DNA from: Firmicutes bacterium HGW-Firmicutes-2
GTDB lineage: Bacteria; Bacillota; Clostridia; Lachnospirales; Vallitaleaceae
NCBI GenBank assembly: GCA_002841495.1
Contig: PGZV01000014.1
Span: 29,745-93,744, forward strand
Length of the DNA: 64,000 nt
Direction of reading: 5' to 3'
Shown: in pieces, positions 14,216 through 54,222 of the stretch
How the letters are laid out: each line of letters starts with the position of its first letter
Position numbering within the stretch: the first letter of the stretch is position 1
Notes under the pieces: model-generated
The model's database searches: none
What the model was told of the DNA's origin: nothing
What the model saw: only the letters and a program-made list of their open reading frames with translations
Made by a program: the position numbers and the translations under genes

Positions 14216-14416
14216 GGGTCCCATGAAAACCCTTCCAGCAACTGTATGATTACGGTCTCCAGTTGGTGCATCCATGCACCAAAAGTCGACGGTCAGCATC
14301 CATGCTGACGAACTCCATCATACAGTCTGCTTCCAGGAACTTCATGGTCGGTGTTGGTAGTTGGAGATAAAGATAAAGATAAAGATAAAGATGGGTCCCA
14401 TGAAAACCCTTCCAGC
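14216..14416. repeat. Structured non-coding element with flanking direct repeats
   Basis: This fills most of the alaS-to-ATPase gap. An identical 24-bp sequence lies at 14216-14239 and 14393-14416 (core CATGAAAACCCTTCCAGC). Inside, ACTGTATGAT (14241-14250) pairs with ATCATACAGT (14317-14326) and encloses two hairpins, at 14263-14282 and 14292-14309. Both hairpins share the tip GCATCCATGC. CCATGAA (14221-14227) can also pair with TTCATGG (14341-14347), giving a nested multi-branched fold. GATAAA is repeated four times at 14366-14389. A shorter relative of the 24-mer (ATGAAAACCCTTCCA) occurs near 36563, before another terminator. I see no open frame and no U-tract. Confidence 0.7.
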
Positions 14417-17251: not shown

Positions 17252-17289
17252 GTTCAACGACTTGACAAAAGATGCTTTTTCGTAAAAAA

Positions 17290-17328
17290 TGGTTATAGGG
17301 TCAAAACTAAGTTTCACTAAGTTCACAT
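17290..17328 (+). repeat. Dispersed intergenic repeat upstream of the capA-like gene
   Basis: Positions 17300-17328 match the reverse complement of 38256-38284 at 28 of 29 bases. Positions 17290-17312 match 7079-7101 at 22 of 23. It includes the direct sub-repeat CTAAGTTTCA / CTAAGTTCAC. The next gene begins 56 bp downstream. Confidence 0.65.
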
Positions 17329-17374
17329 ACAATATATAGATTACGTTGATACATTCATAACTATATATTGTATG
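17326..17374. repeat. 14-bp inverted repeat before the capA-like gene
   Basis: CATACAATATATAG (17326-17339) and CTATATATTGTATG (17361-17374) are perfect inverted copies around a 21-bp spacer. No U-tract follows, so this is not a terminator. It ends 10 bp before the ATG and covers the place where a ribosome binding site would lie; the intervening CGAAGATGAC is a poor one. It could be an operator or an mRNA hairpin that limits translation. Confidence 0.6.
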
Positions 17375-17384
17375 CGAAGATGAC

Positions 17385-18701
17385 ATGAGACTTATTAGAA
17401 TTTTGACTTTATGGCTTATGGTACTGGTTATTCTTTCGAGTTGTATTATGGGTAATCGTAAAGTAGTGGAGCCAAAAGAACCGATTAATCAGGCAAGTAC
17501 CAATTCTGAAGAAGTTCCTGTAAACGCGAGTCAAGAAGCAATTCAACAAGAAGAAATTCAAGTAGAAGCAATTAGTGAAACCAAACGAATATCACTTTTA
17601 TCCGTTGGAGATATTATGATGCATGTCTATCAATTGAGACGTGGTTATAATGGTGCCTCTTTTGACTTTTCTGAAGCTTTTAGGTATGTAGCACCTATTA
17701 TTCAGGCTGGAGATTTCGCAGTTGGTAACCTTGAGACGACTTTTGGTGGTGTAGGTACTCACAGGGTCAAGAATGAAAAAACTGGTTATAGAGGTTATAG
17801 CGGTTATCCAACCTTTAACACTCCGGATGTTTTAGCACAGAATATAAAAGATGCCGGTTTTGATTTGGTGTCAACAGCCAATAACCATTCTCTGGATACT
17901 GGGACAAAAGGATTACTTAGAACTTTAGAAGTATTAAATCAAAATGAAATAGACCATATAGGTACTTATGCCTCACAGGAAGATGAAGGTACCATCAAGA
18001 TTATTGATATTGATGGTATTGAATTTGCCATGATCAGCTATACCTATGGCATGAACGGTTTTACGCTTAAAGAAGATGAAGATTATATGGTGAATCATCT
18101 GAATATGTACGATGAAACCTATGTTGACGAAATGCTTGAGAAAGTTACTTTAGCCAAAAAAACTACCGATGGTCTTGTGGTGGTGATGCTTCATTATGGC
18201 AATGAATATAAAGCCTTACCGGATGAGAATTATCAAAAGCCTATAGTGAATCGGCTTTTTGAAGCCGGTGCCGACATTATATTAGGTGGTCACCCCCATG
18301 TGTTGCAACCAGTTGCCTTGAAAGAGATGGTTGAGGAAGACGGTAGTACAAGAGTTGGGGTTGTGATTTACTCATTGGGTAACTTTATTTCTTCACAACG
18401 GAATGTAGATGGTAGGGGCCCTCATAAGGATATTGGTTTGATTTTTGAAGTGGTGGTGGAGCAGGTGGATAATCAACGACCGGAAATCGTAGAAGTTGCC
18501 TATACACCAACTTATACCCACTGGTCGGAAAAAGTCATTTCGGTTGTACCAACATTTGATGTGCCGGACGACCTTATTCTTAAGGGAACTGATTCTCATA
18601 GAATTTCATATGCCAATACGACCATGATGGATCACATGAAGCATTATATGGAAGATGAGCCGACATTTGACGGGTTGTTTTATAGGTTTCAAATAAAGTA
18701 G
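17385..18701 (+). CDS. CapA-family lipoprotein (poly-gamma-glutamate synthesis/metallophosphatase-like)
   Basis: The 438-aa protein has a lipoprotein signal (hydrophobic segment ending LSSC), then a low-complexity linker rich in Glu and Gln to about residue 65. The CapA domain follows, with the metal-site motifs VGDIMMH, GNLETTF, ANNHSLDTG, LHYGNEY and GADIILGGHPHVLQP. CapA/PgsA proteins are linked to poly-gamma-glutamate capsules, but no pgsB or pgsC is nearby, so the substrate is open. It should be anchored outside the membrane. Its start lacks a good ribosome binding site and follows an inverted repeat. Its last 22 codons recur as a decayed copy at 26307-26372. Confidence 0.85.
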   Translation: MRLIRILTLWLMVLVILSSCIMGNRKVVEPKEPINQASTNSEEVPVNASQEAIQQEEIQVEAISETKRISLLSVGDIMMHVYQLRRGYNGASFDFSEAFRYVAPIIQAGDFAVGNLETTFGGVGTHRVKNEKTGYRGYSGYPTFNTPDVLAQNIKDAGFDLVSTANNHSLDTGTKGLLRTLEVLNQNEIDHIGTYASQEDEGTIKIIDIDGIEFAMISYTYGMNGFTLKEDEDYMVNHLNMYDETYVDEMLEKVTLAKKTTDGLVVVMLHYGNEYKALPDENYQKPIVNRLFEAGADIILGGHPHVLQPVALKEMVEEDGSTRVGVVIYSLGNFISSQRNVDGRGPHKDIGLIFEVVVEQVDNQRPEIVEVAYTPTYTHWSEKVISVVPTFDVPDDLILKGTDSHRISYANTTMMDHMKHYMEDEPTFDGLFYRFQIK

Positions 18702-18730
18702 GAACATGTTATACATGTTCTTATTTTTTT
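18702..18730 (+). terminator. Terminator of the capA-like gene
   Basis: GAACATG and CATGTTC form a 7-bp hairpin with a TTATA loop immediately after the stop codon. A T-rich tract follows at 18721-18730. Confidence 0.85.
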
Positions 18731-18948
18731 GTAAAAAAAGCAAACCAAAGATAATACGAAATAAATTTGCGTAATTAAAAAGCCCATATTGTGGGCTTGT
18801 TTGGAAGAGAATATGTAATAACGCATAAAGAAAACGGTTGAAACATCTGATTGAACATCATATAATTCATCTAATCCAAAAAACCGAGATTTATATTGAG
18901 AAGGTGTTATCTTATGAAAATCCTATGCTAATATCAAAATTAAATATT
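18731..18948. other. Intergenic stretch before the SAM riboswitch
   Basis: This AT-rich stretch has no convincing gene. The only clear structure is AAGCCCA (18780-18786) paired with TGGGCTT (18792-18798). It is flanked by A residues on the left, so it would read as a terminator for minus-strand transcription, although no minus-strand gene ends here. The promoter of the riboswitch transcript should lie in 18850-18945, but I cannot assign -35/-10 boxes with confidence. Confidence 0.5.
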
Positions 18949-19058
18949 ACTTATCAAGAGCGGTGGAGGGACTGGCCCTGTGAAGCCCTGCAACAACTAT
19001 GAGGTTAAGCTCATAGTCATGTGCAAATTCCTACAATGTGTATCATTGAAAGATAAGT
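18949..19058 (+). promoter_or_regulatory. SAM-I (S-box) riboswitch aptamer
   Basis: The S-box consensus is plain: AGAGCGGTGGAGGGACTGGC (18957-18976), GAAGCCC, GCAAC, the GTGCAAATTCCT-like block and GAAAGATAAG. P1 pairs ACTTATC (18949-18955) with GATAAGT (19052-19058). Its 3' strand AAAGATAAGTG can also pair imperfectly with CATTCATCTTT, the 5' part of the terminator at 19078-19111; that is the antiterminator. SAM binding should therefore end transcription, and SAM shortage should switch on the sulfate assimilation genes downstream. Confidence 0.95.
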
Positions 19059-19077
19059 GTGACCTATAATCTCAATA

Positions 19078-19111
19078 GGTACCATTCATCTTTGATGATT
19101 GGTGCTTTTTT
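19078..19111 (+). terminator. SAM-controlled terminator
   Basis: GGTACCATTCATC pairs with GATGATTGGTGC around TTT and is followed by six T residues. It lies between the aptamer and the sulfite reductase ribosome binding site. Confidence 0.88.
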
Positions 19112-19184
19112 AATATCTAGGTATTCCTAATTTAGAAAGACATCAAGGACAGAGTTACTTATGTTCAAATTAAGGAGGCTTCAT

Positions 19185-20750
19185 ATGATAACAATAACTC
19201 AAAAAATGCATGAAAACCAACAAAGATATAGAGACGAATTAGTACGAGCGATTGAACAAAAACTAAAGGGTCATGAATTTAAGAAAACGAGTGGTGCTTA
19301 CGGGGTATACCCTCAAAGAGGTGCTGGTCATTATATGATGCGTCCTAGAATTATATCGGGGATGGTAACTTCAAATCAACTTAGAGGCATAAGTGCAATC
19401 GGTAAAAGTTACTCCAAAGGATGGATCCACTTAACCACTCGGCAGGATATTCAATTTCATAAAATTCGTCTAGAAGATACGTGGGAAATTATGAAACGAT
19501 TATTGGATCTTGATATTGTGACCTATGGCGCAGGAGGTAACAGCATTCGTAATATTACATGTCCGGCTTTATCAGGCGTGAACCCGCATGAAGTATTTGA
19601 TGTTACACCTCATGCAATTGAGGCTACCAAGTTTGTTTTTGAGTTAGATGAGACGGTTACATTACCAAGAAAATTCAAGATAGGTTTCTCAAATACTGAA
19701 GAAGATGAAGGCTTAGCAACGATTGCTGATTTGGGTTTTATTGCAAAAATTAAAAATGGTCGAAGAGGTTTTGCCATATATGGTGGTGGTGGATTTGGTA
19801 GTAATCCGGAAGTAAGTGTCAAATTGGCAGAATGGATAGATGAAACTCAAATCCTATATTCGATTCTAGCTATGAAGCAACTTTTTGAAGCACATGGTAA
19901 TCGTGAGGATCGAAACATAGCGCGTATAAGATATATTCTGAAAAATCTTGGGGAAGAAAAATTTAGAGATTTATATGAGCATCATCTAAAGACTGTATCT
20001 GATAATTTCCAATATGATATAGGTAACTTTGAAGACCTGAAAGACTTCAGTGAACAAGATGAAGAACCCATGTATGGGCTACCAAATACCAGTTCAAGGA
20101 TGAGGCAGAAACAAAGGCGTTTATATAGCCTTTATCTACATCCCAGTCATGGAGACTTATCTTGTGAACAATTGGATCGATTATTGGATATGACAGAAAA
20201 TTTTGGCGATGAAATTGAATATCGATTGAGCATAACTCAAGGACTTTATGTTAGGAACTTGAGTGAGGAACAACTATTGGTACTAGAAAAAGCATTTAAA
20301 GAAATAACTCCATCCACAAGATTTGAAACATCTATATCTTGCACAGGTGCAAATAATTGTAGTATAGGACTTATGGATGGACAAAAGATGCTCATGAACT
20401 TACACACACAATTTGATATGACGGAGAAGTTACCTTTTATCAGAATATCAGGCTGTAGGAATTCATGTGCGTTACATCAGTTGGCGTCAATTGGGCTAGA
20501 GGGAACAAGACTAAGAAATGAGAACAAAGCATACCCAGCTTATAAAGTCTATATTGGAGGGAGAATCAAGAGAGAGGGTACTCAAATAGGAACACATCTG
20601 GCTACAATAGCAGAAAAAAATATTATTAACATGTTTAAGGAACTTTATATATTAGGTAATCAAAAAGATTGTCAAGACTGGGATACCTTATATGATAACT
20701 ACAAAGAGGATATTGAGAAGATTGTCATTGGATATGGAGGGAATGTTTAA
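19185..20750 (+). CDS. Assimilatory siroheme nitrite/sulfite reductase
   Basis: The 521-aa protein has two ferredoxin-like half domains and the siroheme/4Fe-4S ligands CTGANNC (C-x5-C) and GCRNSC (C-x3-C). HLTTRQDIQFH is the typical N-terminal siroheme-pocket segment. It reduces sulfite (or nitrite) with six electrons. The SAM riboswitch and the APS-pathway genes behind it argue for sulfite. No flavoprotein partner (CysJ) is present, so ferredoxin or a similar donor is likely. ATG 19185 follows AAGGAGG (19172-19178); an ATG eight codons upstream lacks such a site. Confidence 0.92.
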   Translation: MITITQKMHENQQRYRDELVRAIEQKLKGHEFKKTSGAYGVYPQRGAGHYMMRPRIISGMVTSNQLRGISAIGKSYSKGWIHLTTRQDIQFHKIRLEDTWEIMKRLLDLDIVTYGAGGNSIRNITCPALSGVNPHEVFDVTPHAIEATKFVFELDETVTLPRKFKIGFSNTEEDEGLATIADLGFIAKIKNGRRGFAIYGGGGFGSNPEVSVKLAEWIDETQILYSILAMKQLFEAHGNREDRNIARIRYILKNLGEEKFRDLYEHHLKTVSDNFQYDIGNFEDLKDFSEQDEEPMYGLPNTSSRMRQKQRRLYSLYLHPSHGDLSCEQLDRLLDMTENFGDEIEYRLSITQGLYVRNLSEEQLLVLEKAFKEITPSTRFETSISCTGANNCSIGLMDGQKMLMNLHTQFDMTEKLPFIRISGCRNSCALHQLASIGLEGTRLRNENKAYPAYKVYIGGRIKREGTQIGTHLATIAEKNIINMFKELYILGNQKDCQDWDTLYDNYKEDIEKIVIGYGGNV

Positions 20751-20751
20751 G

Positions 20752-21345
20752 ATGAATGAAGAAAAATGCAACAACCTGACGAGCCACCCAACAACTGTTA
20801 ATCAGGATGATAGAGAGAAACTTTTGGGTCAAAAAGGTCAAGTCATTCTATTAACAGGCTTATCGGGAGCAGGGAAATCAACCATTGCCTATGCAGTTGA
20901 AAAAAAGCTCCATGACTTATCAAAATTAACCTATGTTTTAGATGGGGATAGTATTCGGTTGGGACTGAATGAAGATTTAGGTTTTTCAAAAGAAGACAGA
21001 ATAGAGAACATGCGAAGGATGAAAGAAATTAGTATCATTCTATCTCAGACAGGGGTCATTGTGTTATTGAGTTTTATAGCACCAATAGAAAAAGAACGGC
21101 TTATATTTGCAGATACCTTTAGGGAACGTTATACAGAAGTTTATGTCACATGCCCTCTGGAAATATGTCGAGAAAGAGATCCTAAGGGGCTCTATGAAAA
21201 GGTTGAACGTGGCATGATTAAGGAGTTTACAGGTGTTGCCTCAGTATATGAGCCGCCAAAGTCACCTCACATAGTGATTAATACGCATGAGCTATCCCTT
21301 GAAGCTTCAGTCGAAGTTGTTGTTGAGCATATATTAAGTCTATAG
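20752..21345 (+). CDS. cysC: Adenylylsulfate kinase (CysC)
   Basis: This 197-aa kinase phosphorylates APS to PAPS. The P-loop GLSGAGKST is near residue 37, followed by LDGDSIRLGLNEDLGFS, a standard APS-binding region, and ENMRRMKEI. It starts directly after the sulfite reductase stop. GGAGG at 20736-20740 is the only binding site, 11 bp upstream. No PAPS reductase is in the operon; reduction instead appears to go through AprA/AprB from APS. PAPS may therefore serve sulfation here, or use a reductase elsewhere. The next enzyme of interest, CysN, carries a second but degenerate copy of this domain. Confidence 0.93.
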   Translation: MNEEKCNNLTSHPTTVNQDDREKLLGQKGQVILLTGLSGAGKSTIAYAVEKKLHDLSKLTYVLDGDSIRLGLNEDLGFSKEDRIENMRRMKEISIILSQTGVIVLLSFIAPIEKERLIFADTFRERYTEVYVTCPLEICRERDPKGLYEKVERGMIKEFTGVASVYEPPKSPHIVINTHELSLEASVEVVVEHILSL

Positions 21346-21357
21346 AGGGAGTGAAAT

Positions 21358-23040
21358 ATGAAAATCAAACATTTAGAAACAGATATTTTAATCATTGGTG
21401 GTGGAACTTCAGGGTGCATAGCTGCAAAAGTTGCCGCAGAATCATCAGATTATAAGATCGTTGTTTGTGACCGTAGCTATATAAATCGTAGCGGTTGTTT
21501 GGCTGCAGGTGTTAATGCTTTAAATGCATATATTGGCCCGGATGAAACGGTAGAATCATGCTTAAGTTACATTAAAGAAGAATTTGACGGCATTATTAGA
21601 GAAGATTTGGTTGTATCAATCTTGGAAAAATTAAATGACATGGTTAGCATTCTTGAAGATATGGGATTACCTATGTTAAAAAATACGAATGGTAGCTATG
21701 CAATGCGAGGTAAACATAGTATCAAGATTAATGGCGAAAACATTAAGCCAATACTTGCTAAACCTCTCATAGAAGAAGATAAGATTACGTTGCTTGAAGA
21801 AGTATACATACTTGACTTGTTAACTCATAGTGGTGCAGTAGTTGGCGGTATAGGCTACTCAAAAAGGAAAAAAAGTTTATATATTATTAAAGCGAAAGCC
21901 ACTTTATGTACGGCAGGAGGTGCTGCTGGCATATATCTTCCCAATAATCAGGGCCAAAATGCACATAAGATGTGGTACAGTCCTTTTAACTGTGGTAGTG
22001 GTTATGCAATGGGTATTAGGGCTGGTGCTGAAATGACAGGTTTTGAAATGAGATTTATTGCTCTTCGGATTAAAAACACGATTGCACCTACGGGAACTAT
22101 TGCTCAGAGCTTGCATTCGGTTCATCGCAATAGATTAGGTGAAGATTACTTAAAAGACTACGATAGAGTCACCACGGAACTTAGATTACATGCCACAACA
22201 CAAGAAGAAGAAGAAGGACGAGGTCCTTGTTATCTAGATACAGTAGGTATAGATAAGAAAGTATCTAGTTTACTTGAAAAGGCATACTTAAACATGGCGC
22301 CGTCACAGACCTTGGACTGGTACGATAAGCAGATGCCAACAGACCTAGGTGTTGAGATAACAGGCACAGAACCCTATATCGTTGGTGGTCATAGTGGTAG
22401 TGGGTACTGGGTAGATCATAAAAGAAGAACAACGCTTAAGTATTTGTATGCTGCCGGTGATGTTTGCGGTGGTAGTCCCAAAAAATATGTCACCGGATGT
22501 ATGGCAGAAAGTGTTATAGCCATTGAGACATTAATTGAGGACTTAAATGGGTCAAAGGGAATAGAGTTATCTGAAGTAAGTGCTATAGAAAAAATCACAA
22601 ATTTTGCCAATAGAATCGATGAAGCATCACCAAATGATTCGAAAAAGCTGGAAGTATTAGAACTGCAAATGCAAAAAATCATGGATACACATGCAGGAGG
22701 TAAAAGCACAAGTTATCGTTATAAGTCAGATAACTTACGAATGGCTCAAGCAGAGATCATTTCCTTGATCGAAATCACAGAAGATATGGTTGTTAAGAAT
22801 GGTGAAGTGCTAGTAAGCCTTGCCGAACTAAGAGATCGGTTGATGGTTGCAATGGTTGTAATAGCACATCTTTTAGAAAGAAAAGAGACAAGATGGCAAT
22901 GCTATCAAAGCAATGCAGATTATCCCCAAAAAGATGAAACCTATCTATGTTATATTAATTCAAGATATGAAGGCAATCAAATTAAAATGTATCATCGCCC
23001 TCTAGTAAGAAAGGGGTTCGGTTATGAGCATACGAATTGA
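21358..23040 (+). CDS. aprA: Adenylylsulfate reductase alpha subunit-like flavoprotein (AprA)
   Basis: The 560-aa FAD enzyme of the fumarate reductase/AprA family would reduce APS to sulfite and AMP. The dinucleotide-binding motif GGGTSG is at residues 16-21. NRSGCLAAGVNALNAYIG and GSGYAMGIRAGAEMTGFEMR match the AprA pattern. It is shorter than AprA of sulfate reducers (roughly 650 aa). Its place in a SAM-controlled operon with CysDN rather than Sat indicates an assimilatory role. The gene overlaps the ferredoxin-like aprB by 17 bp. Confidence 0.88.
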   Translation: MKIKHLETDILIIGGGTSGCIAAKVAAESSDYKIVVCDRSYINRSGCLAAGVNALNAYIGPDETVESCLSYIKEEFDGIIREDLVVSILEKLNDMVSILEDMGLPMLKNTNGSYAMRGKHSIKINGENIKPILAKPLIEEDKITLLEEVYILDLLTHSGAVVGGIGYSKRKKSLYIIKAKATLCTAGGAAGIYLPNNQGQNAHKMWYSPFNCGSGYAMGIRAGAEMTGFEMRFIALRIKNTIAPTGTIAQSLHSVHRNRLGEDYLKDYDRVTTELRLHATTQEEEEGRGPCYLDTVGIDKKVSSLLEKAYLNMAPSQTLDWYDKQMPTDLGVEITGTEPYIVGGHSGSGYWVDHKRRTTLKYLYAAGDVCGGSPKKYVTGCMAESVIAIETLIEDLNGSKGIELSEVSAIEKITNFANRIDEASPNDSKKLEVLELQMQKIMDTHAGGKSTSYRYKSDNLRMAQAEIISLIEITEDMVVKNGEVLVSLAELRDRLMVAMVVIAHLLERKETRWQCYQSNADYPQKDETYLCYINSRYEGNQIKMYHRPLVRKGFGYEHTN

Positions 23041-23380
23041 TAAATCAAAGTGTATAAAATGTAGAGCTTGTTTGGCAATATGCCCTGGTGATTTGATTGA
23101 GTTTGATGAGAATTTAGGAGCAACGATGGATAAGCAACAGAGGTGTTGGGGGTGTTCAGCGTGTATGAAAATGTGTACTAATGGTGCTATAGAACTTGTT
23201 GCCACTGATTATAAGGTGTGTTCATCAATAATCGAACAGGACAATAATCAAACCTGTCATCATAGAATGTCAACTATGACGACGCAAACATCAGATGATA
23301 AAGTGACATGGATTATCACGAAATCAGATGGTGAAAAAATTATAATTGAAACATTAAAATCTGAATCAAATCAATATTAA
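23024..23380 (+). CDS. aprB: Adenylylsulfate reductase beta subunit-like ferredoxin (AprB)
   Basis: The 118-aa iron-sulfur protein has two cysteine clusters. The first is CIKCRACLAICP near residue 10. The second is CWGCSACMKMC near residue 42. These would bind two 4Fe-4S centres that pass electrons to the AprA flavin. The C-terminal 50 residues lack cysteine clusters and may be a shortened version of the tail that wraps AprA in sulfate reducers. Translational overlap with aprA supports a complex. Confidence 0.88.
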   Translation: MSIRIDKSKCIKCRACLAICPGDLIEFDENLGATMDKQQRCWGCSACMKMCTNGAIELVATDYKVCSSIIEQDNNQTCHHRMSTMTTQTSDDKVTWIITKSDGEKIIIETLKSESNQY

Positions 23381-23396
23381 ATCAGGAGGTAGTTAA

Positions 23397-24278
23397 ATGA
23401 ATCATTTAGATCAATTAGAGAATAAAAGTATACATATCATTCGAGAAGCTTATGCATCCTTTAAAAACCTAGGAATGCTATGGTCTATTGGTAAAGATTC
23501 TACAGTATTATTGTGGTTAGCAAGAAAAGCTTTTTTTGGTCACGTACCCATTCCTTTGATTCATATAGACACAAGTTACAAAATTCCGGAAATGATTGAA
23601 TATAGAGATAATCTAGCACTAAAATGGTCTCTGGACATGATTTATGGAACCAATGAAGAAGCTTTGTCGGCAAAACAAACCTACCCGGATGGCAATAGCA
23701 CAAGGTTACAATGCTGTAAAGATCTAAAAGCGGATGCCCTTAAGAACACGTTAAACGGTGAATGGAAGAGATACCGTATGAATCACAATACGAGAGTCTA
23801 TGATGTGGATCATAGTACTGAGGCGTACACAGGTGTTATCGTTGGTGTAAGAGCTGATGAAGAAGGTAGTCGCTCAAAAGAAAGATATTTTTCACCTAGA
23901 AATCAACATAATGATTGGGCAATCAGTGAACAACCCCCTGAATTTTGGAATCAGTATAAAACAGACTTTGCACCTGGAACCCATGTACGTATTCATCCTT
24001 TGTTAGATTGGACAGAACTGGATATATGGGAATATATTGAACGTGAAAAAATAGAGATGGTTTCGTTATATTTTGACCAAGGAACCGGAAGACGATATCG
24101 ATCTCTTGGGTGTTACCCATGTACCAGCCCCGTAGAATCAACAGCATCAAACGTACAGGAAATTATCGAAGAACTAAAAAACGGAAAGTTTGCCAATATT
24201 GCAGAACGCTCAGGTAGAGAACAGGATAAAGAAGATGGTGGCGGCCTAGAAGATCTAAGAAAAGATGGATACATGTAA
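23397..24278 (+). CDS. cysD: Sulfate adenylyltransferase subunit 2 (CysD)
   Basis: CysD is the ATP-pyrophosphatase subunit that joins sulfate to ATP, forming APS. The PP-loop reads [16 protein letters not shown], and [14 protein letters not shown] is the conserved C-terminal signature. At 293 aa it has normal length. CAGGAGG precedes the ATG. It lies 14 bp before cysN, whose GTPase activity drives the reaction. Confidence 0.95.
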
Positions 24279-24292
24279 CAGAAAGGTGGACA

Positions 24293-26095
24293 ATGAATAT
24301 GAATAAAGAAAATAGACATATGAATATTGTTATAGTCGGTCATGTAGACCATGGAAAAAGTACGGTTATCGGAAGGTTACTTGCAGATACCAATTCACTA
24401 CCGGAGGGTAAATTAGAATCCGTAAAAGAGAAATGTCGTAAAAATTCAAAACCATTTGAGTATGCATTTTTATTGGATGCCCTAAAAGACGAACAAGCAC
24501 AAGGTATAACCATTGATTCAGCAAGATGTTTTTTTAAATCAAAAGCTAGAGATTATATTATCATAGATGCTCCTGGTCATATTGAGTTTTTAAGAAATAT
24601 GGTCACAGGAGCATCAAGAGCAGAAGCTGCGCTCTTAGTGATTGATGCAAAAGAAGGTATTAAAGAGAATTCAAAACGACATGGCTACTTATTGTCCATG
24701 CTCGGTATTACGCAAATAGTCGTGCTTGTAAACAAAATGGATTTAGTAGGCTATGATGAAGTGGTATATCAACAGATTGTCAAAGAGTATAGTGCGTTTT
24801 TAGCATCGATTAACCTTAAATCCATAGCATTTATTCCGATTAGTGCATTCAATGGGGACAATCTGATTGATTCTTCGATACAAATGTCTTGGTACGGTGG
24901 GTGTGATGTACTGCAAACTCTAGATAAACTAGAGGTTAAACAATCAATTGAAAGGCAACCATTTAGAATGCCGGTTCAAGGTGTTTACAAATTCACAAAT
25001 AATGGTGACGATCGCCGAATTATTGCGGGTACCATTGAATCTGGCACCATAAGTGTAGGAGATGAAATTACCTTCTACCCTTCCGGTAAACAGACAAGAG
25101 TCAAAACGATTGAAGGTTTTAATGAGGAAGAAGTGACAACTAAAAACGAAGGTCAGTCCATTGGTTTCACAACTGAGGAACAACTTTATATAAAAAGAGG
25201 AGAAATGGTCGTAAAAGCAGATGAATCCATAATTCATAGTGGTATATCTTTTAAAGCGAATGTTTTTTGGCTAGGGAAACAACCATTGATACTTAATAAG
25301 ACGTATATATTTAAGATTGGTTCAGCAAGTGTGAAGGGCCACATTGAACGTATTGTCAGAGTGCTTGACGCTTCAAACTTAAGTACAAGTATAAAAAATG
25401 AAGTGCATCAACACGAAGTTGCTGAAATAATTGTTGTGACCAACGACAGTATCGCCTATGATCTGACTCATGAGCTTCCAAAGACAAGTCGATTTGTTAT
25501 AGTAGATGACTATGAAATATCGGGTGGGGGTATTGTCATTGAAGAGGTTGTTGGATTTGATCATGGTGAAGTAGCACATACCATTCACAAGAATACATTT
25601 TGGCAACGCAGCTATATTAGGCGACAAGAGCGTATTGAAAGACATAGCCAACTTCCTGTTTGGATTCTCATTGCTGGTGAAGCACATGTGGGCAAGAAAC
25701 CGTTAGCTAAGGCTTTAGAGAATTACTTGTTCCAACAGGGACGACTCGTTTATTTCTTAAGCACAGGTAACGTAAAGCATGGACTATCAAATATTTACCC
25801 TGAACAAGAGCGACACACCCATGTACAAATGCTGACAGAAGTTGCAAATATTTTACTCGACAGCGGCCATATAACTATTTCTACGGCCACAAATCTTGAC
25901 AAAGACAATTATCATACCATACATAATATTATTGATGGTCATAGAGTTATTCGCGTATGGTTAGGTGACAATCCTTTCAATATGGAAATCGATATCTTGC
26001 TAAAGCCGGAAGATACGAACTATAATGTACAGAAAATTGTAAACTATCTCAAAAATAATGGGGTGATGTACAAGGGGGAATTTGATGCTGTCTAA
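24293..26095 (+). CDS. cysN: Sulfate adenylyltransferase subunit 1 (CysN) with a degenerate APS kinase-like domain
   Basis: The GTPase half has G1 GHVDHGKS, switch-like [16 protein letters not shown] and NKMD, then two beta-barrel domains. From about residue 450 a further 150 residues align with APS kinases (compare CysC at 20752), giving CysNC architecture. In that domain the P-loop is GEAHVGKKP instead of GLSGAGKST, and the LDGDSIR equivalent reads LSTGNVK. The second domain therefore looks catalytically dead and may be regulatory or structural. An intact CysC in the same operon fits that loss. DUF2061 overlaps its 3' end by 11 bp. Confidence 0.92.
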
Positions 26096-26297
26096 AAGAA
26101 AAACCATCATAAAAACCATATCATATCGTGTAACTGGGACAATAACGACTCTTTTAATTGTATTTTTTATGACAGGAGAAATAGTAATCGCTTCAGGTGT
26201 TGCTTCTATTGAAGTCATATTGAAAATGTTAATCTATTATATCCATGAAAGGATTTGGCATAAATTTGCTGTTGAGGAACCGGAATATCATTTATAA
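26085..26297 (+). CDS. DUF2061 small membrane protein
   Basis: The 70-aa protein has two hydrophobic stretches and the family pattern [13 protein letters not shown] near the N-terminus and [11 protein letters not shown] near the end. DUF2061 proteins often neighbour or are fused to sulfate adenylyltransferase genes; their function is not known. AAGGGGG (26071-26077) serves the ATG at 26085. It overlaps cysN, so it belongs to the SAM-controlled operon and is its last gene. Confidence 0.85.
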
Positions 26298-26306
26298 AAC
26301 GAGGAT

Positions 26307-26372
26307 ATGAAACAATATATGGGGGGGTAAGTCGATTTTGTCGGGTTATTTTATCGGTTCCAAATAAAGTAG
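26307..26372 (+). pseudogene. Remnant of a capA-like 3' end
   Basis: These 66 bp align without gaps to the last 22 codons of the capA-like gene (18636-18701), with 48 identities. The final 11 codons, including the stop, are nearly intact (GLFYRFQIK). The three differences in the last 31 bp are all synonymous. An in-frame TAA and an unrelated patch lie in the middle. It begins 9 bp after the DUF2061 stop and has no start of its own. It looks like the stranded end of another capA allele and marks the right edge of the sulfur module. Confidence 0.75.
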
Positions 26373-26390
26373 ACAAAACCCAATATTTTT
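26336..26390 (+). terminator. Possible terminator of the sulfate operon
   Basis: TTTTGTC (26336-26342) pairs with GACAAAA (26372-26378), with an inner TTATTT/AAATAA stem, and is followed by CCCAATATTTTTG. The long internal loop and spaced T-tract make this a weak call. It is formed largely from the capA remnant. Confidence 0.35.
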
Positions 26391-26400
26391 GTAAATTAGG

Positions 26401-26428
26401 TTGACGAATAATATTATTGTGGTATAAT
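26401..26428 (+). promoter_or_regulatory. Promoter of rpsU
   Basis: TTGACG (26401-26406) and TATAAT (26423-26428) are 16 bp apart, about 75 bp before the rpsU start. Confidence 0.8.
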
Positions 26429-26503
26429 CATCTATAGTGCTAAATTATTACCTTTAGTTGTAGGACAAGCACAATACGCAACTGGAGGGAGGTTGAAATT
26501 GCT

Positions 26504-26677
26504 ATGTCTAATGTAACGATTAGAGACAACGAAACTCTTGATAGTGCTCTTAGAAGATTTAAGAGAAACTGCGCCAAAGCAGGTATCATGCAAGAAATCA
26601 GAAAAAGAGAACATTACGAAAAACCTAGTGTTAAACGTAAGAAGAAATCAGAAGCAGCTAGAAAACGTAAATTCTAA
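26504..26677 (+). CDS. rpsU: 30S ribosomal protein S21
   Basis: A 57-aa basic protein begins [20 protein letters not shown] and continues with [12 protein letters not shown] and a lysine/arginine-rich tail, matching bS21. GGAGGGAGG precedes the ATG. S21 sits on the 30S platform near the anti-Shine-Dalgarno region. Its position before yqeY and phoH is the usual Firmicute order. Confidence 0.96.
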
Positions 26678-26699
26678 TTTATTTGAATAGGATGGTTGA

Positions 26700-27146
26700 A
26701 TGAGTTTAAAAGATCAATTGTTTCTTGATTTTAAGGAAGCAATGAAGAAAAAAGAGACTCTACGCAAGAATACGATTCAATCCATACGTACAGCAGCTCT
26801 TCAGATGGAAAAAGATCAAAAGATCGATGTTTCGGAAGAAGATTATGTAAAAATCATTGCAAACCTGGTTAAAAAGCGCACAAGCGCCTTACCTGAGTTT
26901 GAAAAGAGTGGTCGTTTAGACCTCATCGACGAATTGAAGTCAGAGATTGATATTCTCATGACTTATTTACCTAAGCAATTATCTGATGATGAAGTCTATG
27001 AGATTGTATCGAAGACAATTGAAGAACTAGGTGCCACATCTATGAAAGATATGGGAAAAGTTATGGGTGTTCTTACGGATGAATTATCCGGTAAAGCAGA
27101 TACCAAACTGGTGAGTCAATTGGTCAAAAAGCGTTTAAGTCAATAG
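26700..27146 (+). CDS. GatB/YqeY domain protein
   Basis: This 148-aa protein consists of a YqeY domain alone (SLKDQLFLDFKEAMKKKE start, ELKSEIDILMTYLPKQLSDDE in the middle). The domain is related to the tRNA-binding tail of GatB. Its free-standing role is not settled. It lies 22 bp after rpsU and is probably co-transcribed with it. Confidence 0.93.
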   Translation: MSLKDQLFLDFKEAMKKKETLRKNTIQSIRTAALQMEKDQKIDVSEEDYVKIIANLVKKRTSALPEFEKSGRLDLIDELKSEIDILMTYLPKQLSDDEVYEIVSKTIEELGATSMKDMGKVMGVLTDELSGKADTKLVSQLVKKRLSQ

Positions 27147-51452: not shown

Positions 51453-52472
51453 ATGGGGTATGCACTGACAAAGCAACAGCTAAATGAATATCTTAAGGCC
51501 TTAGGACGTCAATATCTTCTGGTGGGGCCAATTCGGGAGAAAGCTAAAGGCACTTTTTCGGATACGGACAAAATTGTTTATGGTGTTTTTGAAGCCTTTG
51601 AAGATTTGGTTTTGGAGGAAAAGGCATTTTATTCACCTAAAGAATTCTTGATGCCGATCAGAGAAACGTTGTTTCATTTTTTAGACGGACAGATTGTGGA
51701 ACCCAAAATTGATACCAAGCCGATTTTAATATTTGCTAGGCCTTGTGATTTAAACGGTATTAGGCGACTGGACACCATATTTCTTAAGAATGGGGATATT
51801 AAAGACTCTTATTATGAACGCAGAAGAAATCTGGTCAAATATGTGATGATTGAATGTACCGAAGGTTTTGATACCTGTTTTTGTGTTTCCATGGGATCTG
51901 GTACCTATAAAGATTATGAGGCGGCTATTCGCTTTGATGGTAATCAAACCTTGTTAGATGTTGTGGACTCTACGCTTGTTACCGAAGGTTTGAGTCAAGT
52001 AATCCGAAAAGATTTTGTTCCTGAATATATTAAAGAAAATAAAGTTAAAGTGGTTATACCACCAATAGACAAGGTTAACAACAGCATCTTTGAACACCCT
52101 ATATGGAAAGAATACACCAGAAGATGTATTGCTTGTGGCCGATGTAATACTTCCTGTATAACCTGTTCATGTTTTACCATGCAGGATGTTGAGATGAGTG
52201 ATGATGGTTTGTTAGGTGAACGCAGAAGGGTTTGGGCAAGTTGCCATATTAAAGGCTATACGGATATGGCAGGAGGGCATGGTTTTAGAAAACAAAATGG
52301 AGAAAGAATGCGTTTTAAAACTATGCATAAAATCAATGACTATCATAAAAGATTTGGTGAGAATATGTGTGTTGGCTGTGGTCGATGTGATGATGTTTGT
52401 CCGGAATACATCTCTTTTTCAAAATGCATCAATAAGTTATCTGAGATTATAAAGGAGGAAAGTCATGAATAA
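51453..52472 (+). CDS. asrA: Anaerobic sulfite reductase subunit A
   Basis: The 339-aa iron-sulfur protein has RPCDLNGIRRLDTIF in the middle and two C-terminal 4Fe-4S motifs, CIACGRCNTSCITC and CVGCGRCDDVC. AsrA carries electrons from AsrB to the siroheme subunit AsrC. AAAGGAG precedes the ATG. The stop overlaps asrB by 8 bp. Confidence 0.95.
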   Translation: MGYALTKQQLNEYLKALGRQYLLVGPIREKAKGTFSDTDKIVYGVFEAFEDLVLEEKAFYSPKEFLMPIRETLFHFLDGQIVEPKIDTKPILIFARPCDLNGIRRLDTIFLKNGDIKDSYYERRRNLVKYVMIECTEGFDTCFCVSMGSGTYKDYEAAIRFDGNQTLLDVVDSTLVTEGLSQVIRKDFVPEYIKENKVKVVIPPIDKVNNSIFEHPIWKEYTRRCIACGRCNTSCITCSCFTMQDVEMSDDGLLGERRRVWASCHIKGYTDMAGGHGFRKQNGERMRFKTMHKINDYHKRFGENMCVGCGRCDDVCPEYISFSKCINKLSEIIKEESHE

Positions 52473-53256
52473 TCCTTATATGCCAAGACCCTATACTTTA
52501 ATATCGACACAAAAAGAAACAGAAATTGATACCACTTTTGTTTTTGAAGCCAAAGACCGGTTTATTGGTGGTCAGTTTATGCAACTGTCCATTCCGGGTG
52601 TCGGTGAAGCACCTATATCTATATCTGATTTTGATGAGGATTCACTTACGATGACCATCCGTAAAGTAGGTCGCGTTACAGATCGACTTTTTGCAATGAA
52701 GCCGGGTGAAACTCTACATATGCGTGGACCATATGGGAATGGCTTTAAACAGGAATGGTTTAGAGATCATGACATGGTTGTCATTGCCGGGGGTACCGGA
52801 CTTGCACCTGTAAAAAATACCATTGATGCTTTCGTATCCAATCCAGAGAGTATAAAAAGCTTACAAATGATCGTCGGCTTTAAAAGCCCAAAAGATGTAC
52901 TTTTCAAACAGACACTGAATCAATGGCAAGAGAAAGTGCCTATGATCATCACCGTGGATCAAGGCGATGATACATGGCCTAATGAGGTTGGTCTTATCCC
53001 AAGCCATATTAAGAATCTGGATTTGACGAATGTCGCAAATAAGACGGTGATCGTTGTCGGTCCGCCTATGATGATGAAATTCACCACCCTTGAGTTGTTA
53101 CGTCTTGGTTTTGCTGAAGAAAATATTTGGGTATCTTTTGAACGTAAAATGAGTTGTGGTATCGGTAAATGCGGTCACTGTAAGATTGATGAAACTTATG
53201 TTTGCCTAGAAGGTCCTGTTTTTAACTATACCAAGGCAAAGACATTGTTGGACTAA
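52465..53256 (+). CDS. asrB: Anaerobic sulfite reductase subunit B
   Basis: The 263-aa FAD/NAD(P)-binding subunit has an FAD segment (PISISDF), GPYGNGF, an NAD-binding GGTGLAPVKNTI and a C-terminal 2Fe-2S motif SCGIGKCGHCKI. It accepts electrons from NADH. AAAGGAGG precedes the start. It lies between asrA and asrC in the standard asrABC order. Confidence 0.95.
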   Translation: MNNPYMPRPYTLISTQKETEIDTTFVFEAKDRFIGGQFMQLSIPGVGEAPISISDFDEDSLTMTIRKVGRVTDRLFAMKPGETLHMRGPYGNGFKQEWFRDHDMVVIAGGTGLAPVKNTIDAFVSNPESIKSLQMIVGFKSPKDVLFKQTLNQWQEKVPMIITVDQGDDTWPNEVGLIPSHIKNLDLTNVANKTVIVVGPPMMMKFTTLELLRLGFAEENIWVSFERKMSCGIGKCGHCKIDETYVCLEGPVFNYTKAKTLLD

Positions 53257-53268
53257 GGAGGCGTACTC

Positions 53269-54222
53269 ATGAGTATAGATCGAAAAATAGTGACAAAAAA
53301 TGCATATAGAATCACAAAAATTAGAAATAAAACCGCCCTTAGAGTACGTGTTCCGGGTGGCCATCTGGAAGCCAAATATTTTCAAATCATTCAAGAAGTA
53401 GCAGAAAAATTTGGTGACGGTACGGTTCATTTGACCACCAGACAAGGTTTTGAATGTCCTGGAATCGACTTTGATCGAATCCCGGAAATCAATAAGATGA
53501 TCCGTCCCCTAATTGAATCCCTTGGCCTTGATGTGGATTATGGTGATGGTGGCTATCCGGCAGCGGGAACAAGAAATATCTCGGCCTGCATTGGTAACCG
53601 TGTTTGTCCTTATGCCAATGATGACACGACCAGAATCGCAAACAGCCTTGAAAAAGCCGTATATCCTCATGATTTTCATTTCAAAATCGCTGTAACCGGT
53701 TGTCCTAATGATTGTATTAAAGCCCATATGCAGGACTTTGGTATTATCTGTTTAACTGAGCCTCAATACGAAAGCAAACGATGTATCACTTGCGAGGCAT
53801 GTGTGGACAACTGTAAGAAAAAAGTGACCGGTGCCTTAAGCGTTAAGGATTATAACATCGAAAGAGATATAGAAAAATGTATCGGATGCGGTGAATGTAT
53901 ACTAAAGTGTCCGGCAGGGGCATGGACGAGAAGTGAAGAAAAGTATTATAGAATGGTCATTATGGGCAGAACCGGTAAGAAAAACCCTAGATTGGCCATG
54001 CCTTTCATTAAGTGGGCAACAGAAGAAGAAATTACTCAAATCATAAAAAATACCTATGGTTTTGTAGAACGCTATATTGATACAAGTTTGCCGAAGGAGC
54101 ATATCGGTTATATTGTGGACCGTATGGGTTATCAAGTCTTTAAAATGAAGGTTTGTAGAAAAGGGGGTCTATATCATGCAAGAAATTTTTTTACTGGAAG
54201 ATCTACTGGATGTGCTCATTGA
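53269..54222 (+). CDS. asrC: Anaerobic sulfite reductase subunit C (siroheme subunit)
   Basis: The 317-aa catalytic subunit reduces sulfite to sulfide. Siroheme/4Fe-4S ligands are CIGNRVC (C-x5-C) and CPNDC (C-x3-C). Two further ferredoxin-type clusters, CITCEACVDNCK and CIGCGECILKCP, lie in the insertion typical of AsrC. VHLTTRQGFECPG marks the siroheme pocket. Its 3' end overlaps the ferritin-like gene by 47 bp. Confidence 0.95.
   Translation: MSIDRKIVTKNAYRITKIRNKTALRVRVPGGHLEAKYFQIIQEVAEKFGDGTVHLTTRQGFECPGIDFDRIPEINKMIRPLIESLGLDVDYGDGGYPAAGTRNISACIGNRVCPYANDDTTRIANSLEKAVYPHDFHFKIAVTGCPNDCIKAHMQDFGIICLTEPQYESKRCITCEACVDNCKKKVTGALSVKDYNIERDIEKCIGCGECILKCPAGAWTRSEEKYYRMVIMGRTGKKNPRLAMPFIKWATEEEITQIIKNTYGFVERYIDTSLPKEHIGYIVDRMGYQVFKMKVCRKGGLYHARNFFTGRSTGCAH

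Follow-up and report, generated by a model that had tools for sequence, protein, structure and literature searches.

Genomic islands are known to settle at the 3′ ends of protein-coding genes, as exemplified by SGI1, which is described as integrated at the 3′ end of trmE (PMC8409611). Assimilatory sulfate operons of the AprBA type occur in Clostridia such as Clostridium zeae, Anaerovirgula and Thermincola; among the best 80 of 516 AprA loci compared here, 68 share the gene order aprA-aprB-cysD-cysN, and in 22 of the 80 this order is preceded by cysC. Here, we analysed an operon with cysC in that same place, located in a 64,000-nt stretch (contig PGZV01000014.1; hereafter the window) of the genome of Firmicutes bacterium HGW-Firmicutes-2 (3.52 Mb over 35 contigs). 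The operon lies between a capA-like gene (capA for short) and rpsU, with one copy of the 66-bp 3′ end of capA on either side. We consider it very likely that this sulfate operon was inserted at the capA–rpsU junction in a Petrocella-like lineage of the Vallitaleaceae, and that the last 66 bp of capA were duplicated as a scar.

An empty site in a related genome

Four genomes of the genus were compared: that of the window itself (G000) and three others (G001, G002 and G003). The complete genome among them, G003, is taken to be that of Petrocella atlantisensis 70B-A, a species described as a member of the Vallitaleaceae that does not use sulfate as an electron acceptor, a statement that says nothing on assimilation (PMC6647913). 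Over 22,380 columns of core genes, identity to G000 amounted to 0.895 for G002 (the nearest relative), 0.872 for G003 and 0.851 for G001, and 555 sites united G000 with G002, as compared to 309 and 286 sites for the alternative groupings.

In G003, the genes are arranged in the order ATPase-capA-rpsU-yqeY, with capA (protein 88.6% identical to its counterpart in the window) directly adjoining rpsU. The capA stop and the rpsU start codon are separated by 131 bp, exactly the distance between the right repeat copy and rpsU in the window, and a single base differs between the two spacers. Because the same spacer is present at this empty site, we conclude that ~7.6 kb was inserted in the window and that the sequence from 26307 onward represents the native right flank. 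This bears out a preliminary description of the locus, which had placed an insertion between capA and rpsU, had read the right copy as what remains of the original gene end, and had named a relative with capA directly before rpsU as a check.

A capA-like protein is encoded in 42 of 59 genomes searched (own genome included). Synteny was assessed in 29 loci other than our own (L003–L031), one per genome and best matches only, with 12 further capA-positive genomes left out. Twenty of these loci have rpsU within a 1.5-kb flank of capA, at a distance of 124–280 bp in 17 cases and of ~1.1 kb in the other three, which belong to one genus and hold an open reading frame (ORF) that by eye resembles an AEC-type transporter. 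From these counts and distances, capA–rpsU adjacency is most likely ancestral. Genes have entered the gap on more than one occasion: in G011 (L117:3886–7993), an independent 4.1-kb insertion carries three ORFs of 132, 623 and 412 aa. In G001, contigs end on either side of the capA locus (the end of L214, and L040) and capA was not found in the assembly; the locus may contain unassembled DNA.

A partly degraded repeat of the capA 3′ end

The last 66 bp of capA (18636–18701, plus strand), which form its functional 3′ end, align without gaps to positions 26307–26372 on the same strand, where we locate a remnant of the native capA end. This register, noted in the preliminary description, holds up and is far above chance: the second copy scores 48 identities, compared to 36 for the next best gapless placement of the 66-mer anywhere in the window on either strand. 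Likewise, a 30-base IUPAC pattern of the repeat core, allowing at most three mismatches, gave two matches, and none in 100 shuffles. Identity is spread unevenly, with 14 of 16, then 6 of 19 and finally 28 of 31 bases shared; the middle value (repeat bases 17–35) is at chance level, being reached by 39% of random places. The recognisable duplicate therefore consists of 16 and 31 bp flanking an unrecognisable 19-bp patch. The longest exact run between the copies is 12 bp, at the stop codon. Thus, the gapless match across 66 bp stands, but its identity over the whole length is only 48/66, and the frame of the right copy is not open, as it carries an in-frame TAA at 26328–26330. Within the final 31 bp, the three differences previously reported are confirmed and are all synonymous in the frame of capA.

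With G003 as the outgroup, both copies in the window agree against G003 at four sites of the last 31 bp, where two private changes fall to the coding copy and one to the remnant. The first 35 bp behave differently: 14 changes are private to the remnant (14/35 vs. 1/31, Fisher p 0.0003), and of the 15 sites at which the copies differ in this part, G003 matches the left copy at 14 and the right copy at one. A rough age model, which assumes a per-lineage rate and one third of free sites in the coding copy, predicts for a duplication of the operon's age 3.8 differences across the final 31 bp, against three seen, and 1.9 across the initial 16 bp, against two seen. As judged from these predicted and observed numbers, the repeat is consistent at both ends with a plain duplication of some age.

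It had been argued that a simple recent duplication cannot account for the three synonymous differences. This is true of a recent event but not of an old one. The changes in the coding copy are synonymous, as would be expected under selection, and a foreign capA allele is not needed. More generally, when flanking copies of a gene end differ at synonymous positions, this alone is no evidence of a foreign allele, as it is equally the outcome of an old duplication. Selection on the right copy through rpsU regulation was also considered and is unlikely: its last 31 bp differ from G003 at five positions and the spacer at one, and the remnant folds no better than shuffled sequences.

Distribution, age and composition of the operon

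Full-length AprA was detected in only two of 22 genomes of the family (G000 and G002), three others giving weak partial matches only; across the order, 41 of 392 genomes were positive at E 1e-60. The last gene of the block, encoding a DUF2061 protein, has matches in one of 59 relatives and eight of 398 genomes of the phylum (own genome included in both counts). In G002, the operon resides on a 5,161-bp contig, the reverse complement of HGW-Firmicutes-3 PGZS01000166.1, both ends of which lie inside the operon. Searches of G002 between alaS and yqgF returned nothing beyond this operon contig; it is possible that the operon occupies the same capA–rpsU site there.

Between G000 and G002, identity at four-fold degenerate sites ranged from 0.78 to 0.94 in five operon genes, compared to a median of 0.68 (range 0.55–0.84, n=18) in core genes (Mann–Whitney p 0.0002), while protein identity of the operon was not higher. 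As silent sites of the operon are less diverged, its common ancestor is younger than that of the core, which points to a late arrival or to later exchange within the genus. On present evidence, the insertion is old, yet it postdates the divergence from P. atlantisensis.

Third-position GC content has a median of 0.279 in the seven operon genes and of 0.327 in 17 flanking genes (p 0.0006), six of the seven falling below every flanking gene, which may be taken as a weak sign of a different origin. Of the composition contrast proposed in the preliminary description, this is the part that was recovered; codon choice resembles that of the flanks. Similarly, its proposal that a sulfate module was transferred is in line with the patchy distribution, and the block was probably acquired horizontally, with homologous recombination and a lost site-specific element both conceivable as routes. 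As a side observation, G008 (L124) and G013 (L125) encode a cysD-cysN pair, about 50–55% identical to that of the window, without AprA, and the family therefore contains another sulfate route.

How the block may have been joined

Taken together, ~7.6 kb of DNA with a SAM (S-adenosylmethionine) riboswitch and the operon sir-cysC-aprA-aprB-cysD-cysN-DUF2061 would have entered at the 3′ end of capA, ahead of rpsU. We infer that the terminal 66 bp of capA, or slightly more, became duplicated in the same event. The left copy would complete an intact capA, followed by a new terminator, and the right copy would have retained the native spacer and promoter of rpsU. Freed from selection, the latter would then have drifted and undergone one local scrambling of 19 bp. 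Tentatively, the incoming DNA might have been attached with one end to the end of capA and with the other 66 bp upstream, candidate processes being one-sided homologous/illegitimate recombination or the repair of a staggered break; any capA end brought in would have its origin within this lineage or in a close relative of it. The insertion event is well supported; its physical route may have been one-sided recombination, a staggered break or an integrase since lost. All in all, this is a fairly ordinary, roughly dated gene acquisition.

Several observations weigh against this reading. In nine of the 29 capA loci, rpsU is not within the flank; four of these nine were extended (G011, G010, G057 and G044). 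In G011, rpsU was then found 4.1 kb downstream of capA with the three ORFs in between, and no rpsU was found in 16–20 kb around capA in G010, G057 and G044. Within the genus, the empty site is seen in one genome only, G003, and the assemblies of G001 and G002 are gapped across the capA locus, so that the G002 operon may or may not occupy the same place. Duplication plus drift is insufficient for the 19-bp patch, which shows 13 differences where 2.3 are expected and so calls for a local event of its own. Once amino-acid composition is taken into account, codon choice does not differ between operon and flanks (p 0.31). Finally, no near donor was found, the best AprA outside G002 among the 80 loci being 53% identical.

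The alternative favoured in the preliminary description is homologous recombination with DNA of another strain, whereby a foreign allele replaced the capA end and the old end was left behind. We consider this unlikely, though with an appreciable chance of being right. It would account for the three synonymous differences, two of them changes of the left copy against G003, and it is in keeping with an operon that apparently passed from one lineage of the genus to another. Over its last 150 bp, capA also dips to 0.77 identity with G003. In nine other capA pairs (overlapping pairs that share genomes and are not independent), the C-terminus is likewise less conserved than the middle in five and not in four, so that the dip favours neither reading. 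The four sites at which both copies agree against G003, however, would make the donor allele a nearer relative of this lineage than that of P. atlantisensis, and the number of differences equals that expected from drift since the operon's age. On both grounds, the claim that incoming DNA must have supplied the end of a related allele was not supported.

Also compatible with an insertion, though improbable in our view, is a site-specific element with its attachment (att) site at the capA 3′ end. The left copy would be a synonymous end carried in by the element and the right copy the native end, now attR, while the integrase and other mobile genes would have disappeared later. A direct repeat that restores the target gene, with synonymous differences, at a gene 3′ end is the expected layout; the copies share 28 of 31 bases, with the 12-bp exact run at the stop, and islands at such sites have precedents in SGI1 and trmE (PMC8409611). 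On the other hand, no recombinase was seen among the six sulfate genes and DUF2061 or the ten of 17 other ORFs scanned, the homology upstream of the putative core (14/16) is not predicted by an att core alone, and the copies share four states against G003. Moreover, a degenerate GLFYRFQ(I/V)K-end pattern gave no matches in viral contigs, and the insertions in the capA–rpsU gap of G011 and G012 show no comparable repeat. Quite improbable, too, is the extended scenario in which the capA 3′ end beside rpsU would act like an att site at which DNA lands, the sulfate block travelling through it as a passenger between Petrocella-like lineages, with the capA end and the terminator derived from mobile DNA and present-day spread through homologous exchange via the capA and rpsU flanks after loss of the recombinase.

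We regard it as very improbable that the operon was inserted in the ancestor of the genus and subsequently lost from P. atlantisensis. Recombination between the 66-bp direct repeats would indeed yield exactly the G003 arrangement. By the same rough model, however, a duplication dating back to the divergence from G003 should have left 7.8 differences in the last 31 bp, where three are seen (P 0.03), and the silent divergence of the operon between its carriers lies below that of the core; the agreement of G003 with the left copy at 14 of 15 differing sites in the first 35 bp speaks against it as well. That the right copy is a decayed tandem capA paralogue, mostly replaced by the operon, is barely credible: the copy does represent the 3′ end of a capA gene and includes a stop codon, but G003 has one capA at this place, the stretches examined in the 20 loci with nearby rpsU hold no second capA match (E 1e-5), and the native spacer length is kept exactly.

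Features of the block and its flanks

All features of the locus are encoded on the plus strand. The capA-like gene (17385–18701) is intact and specifies 438 aa with a PGA_cap domain (PF09587; 221.7 bits, cut-off 27). Immediately after its stop codon, a hairpin followed by a T-run (18702–18736; fold of 18660–18745, z −3.8) resembles an intrinsic terminator; it is absent from the corresponding position in G003, and a terminator-like match is also found on the minus strand at 18720–18702. A promoter-like TTGAAA-17-TATAAT (18838–18866) matches the consensus at 11 of 12 positions, although the number of such sites is about that in shuffled sequence, making the prediction weak. Downstream lies a SAM (S-box) riboswitch aptamer (18948–19059; RF00162, 85.3 bits, gathering threshold 44.4), followed by a terminator-like hairpin with a T-run that folding places at about 19077–19112.

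The first gene, sir (19185–20750; listed ORF from 19161), encodes a siroheme reductase of the sulfite/nitrite type, which passes the Pfam domain cut-offs only (PF01077, PF03460) and falls short of the cut-off of all ten NCBIfam models matched. It is followed by cysC for adenylylsulfate kinase (20752–21345; listed ORF from 20692; TIGR00455, 213.7 bits, cut-off 138.7) and an aprA-like gene for adenylylsulfate reductase alpha (21358–23040; NF005331, 741 bits, cut-off 557), whose product stays below the cut-off of TIGR02061 (286 vs. 642). The adjoining aprB-like gene (23024–23380) encodes a ferredoxin subunit assigned by Fer4 families (TIGR02060, 33.7 bits, below the cut-off of 135.65). Next come cysD for sulfate adenylyltransferase subunit 2 (23397–24278; NF003587, 352.8 bits, cut-off 195) and cysN (24293–26095; TIGR02034, 348.4 bits, cut-off 336.1), whose product carries a C-terminal adenylylsulfate-kinase-like domain (PF01583, residues 456–556). 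AprA, CysC, CysD and CysN each score above at least one curated NCBIfam cut-off and below others. The block ends with the gene for the DUF2061 small membrane protein (26085–26297; PF09834, 70.6 bits, cut-off 23.1), which has no NCBIfam match.

As predicted from these gene families, the operon likely yields sulfide from sulfate when SAM is scarce, and the riboswitch and sulfur operon are as previously described. By eye, the P-loop region of the kinase-like domain of CysN reads GEAHVGKK, that of the separate CysC GLSGAGKST; the former lacks the usual Ser/Thr after GK. The block contains no transporter gene, and no recombinase or transposase was seen among its seven genes or the ten of 17 other ORFs (≥50 aa) scanned with Pfam, all ten of which were without a match. 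Elsewhere in the window (51453–54222), genes for AsrA and AsrC of anaerobic sulfite reductase score above curated cut-offs and are separated by an ORF that takes the position of a putative AsrB, and the genome therefore has a second sulfite-reducing route.

To the right of the block, the native 131-bp spacer (26373–26503), with a promoter-like TTGACG-16-TATAAT at 26401–26428, is near-identical in G003 and leads into rpsU (26504–26677; PF01165), the ancestral right neighbour of capA, whose protein is 100% identical to that of G003. Across rpsU-yqeY (26504–27146), four-fold-site identity to G003 is 1.0, compared to about 0.6 for most other genes, and identities to G001 are 0.94 and 0.90; slow evolution or recent exchange may underlie this conservation. 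To the left, interspersed repeats at 17289–17378 (~90 bp) and 14216–14357 (~140 bp) have many copies in all four genomes of the genus, a query spanning both giving 51–64 matches per genome. The copy at 17289–17378, just upstream of capA, resembles a small mobile repeat, as it is absent from the G003 site.

Source of the operon and comparison with known systems

In an AprA tree (88 rows), the window and G002 share a long branch without a close donor. A CysD tree (77 rows) groups the window with Clostridium zeae, Clostridium muellerianum and relatives (seven rows, support 97/83), and in a wider grouping with Anaerovirgula and Thermincola. Carriage by a plasmid as the source was considered and set aside: all 95 plasmid records with an AprA match are below 60% identity, the best being from Ilyobacter (49.6%). 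In a narrow literature search, no title named this insertion. For an entire metabolic module, the locus thus offers both the occupied and the empty state of one site, together with a roughly dated scar, in a family that has received little study. It illustrates how a fermenter could come to assimilate sulfate while capA and the rpsU promoter stay intact.

In terms of classes of mobile DNA, the locus does not resemble a transposon with a target-site duplication, as no transposase was seen and the duplication measures about 66 bp. Like islands at 3′ ends such as SGI1, as described for trmE, it leaves the target gene intact and has a truncated copy of the 3′ end at the far side. Unlike such islands, the block is without a mobility gene seen, and its repeat is partly scrambled with an exact run of only 12 bp. 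Homology-facilitated illegitimate recombination, as outlined in PMC3240628, could yield the anatomy of the window through one homologous and one illegitimate junction.

Compared with AprBA-type operons of Clostridia, the window and G002 stand apart by an AprA only 47–53% identical to the other AprA loci compared. DUF2061, capA and rpsU were found in none of the 80 AprA loci within the stretches examined, and no SAM riboswitch was seen in seven loci of the order that were scanned, six of them around AprA. DUF2061 belongs to sulfate operons, as it occurs within 1.5 kb of sulfate genes in eight of ten loci of other genomes of the phylum. In its equipment, the window combines AprA, CysC, CysD and CysN that pass NCBIfam cut-offs with a SAM riboswitch, a form of control that not every operon of this type needs to have; sir and AprB fall below their NCBIfam cut-offs. 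A SAM riboswitch upstream of sir, like that of the window, is found in Clostridium sp. OS1-26, one of six such loci scanned.

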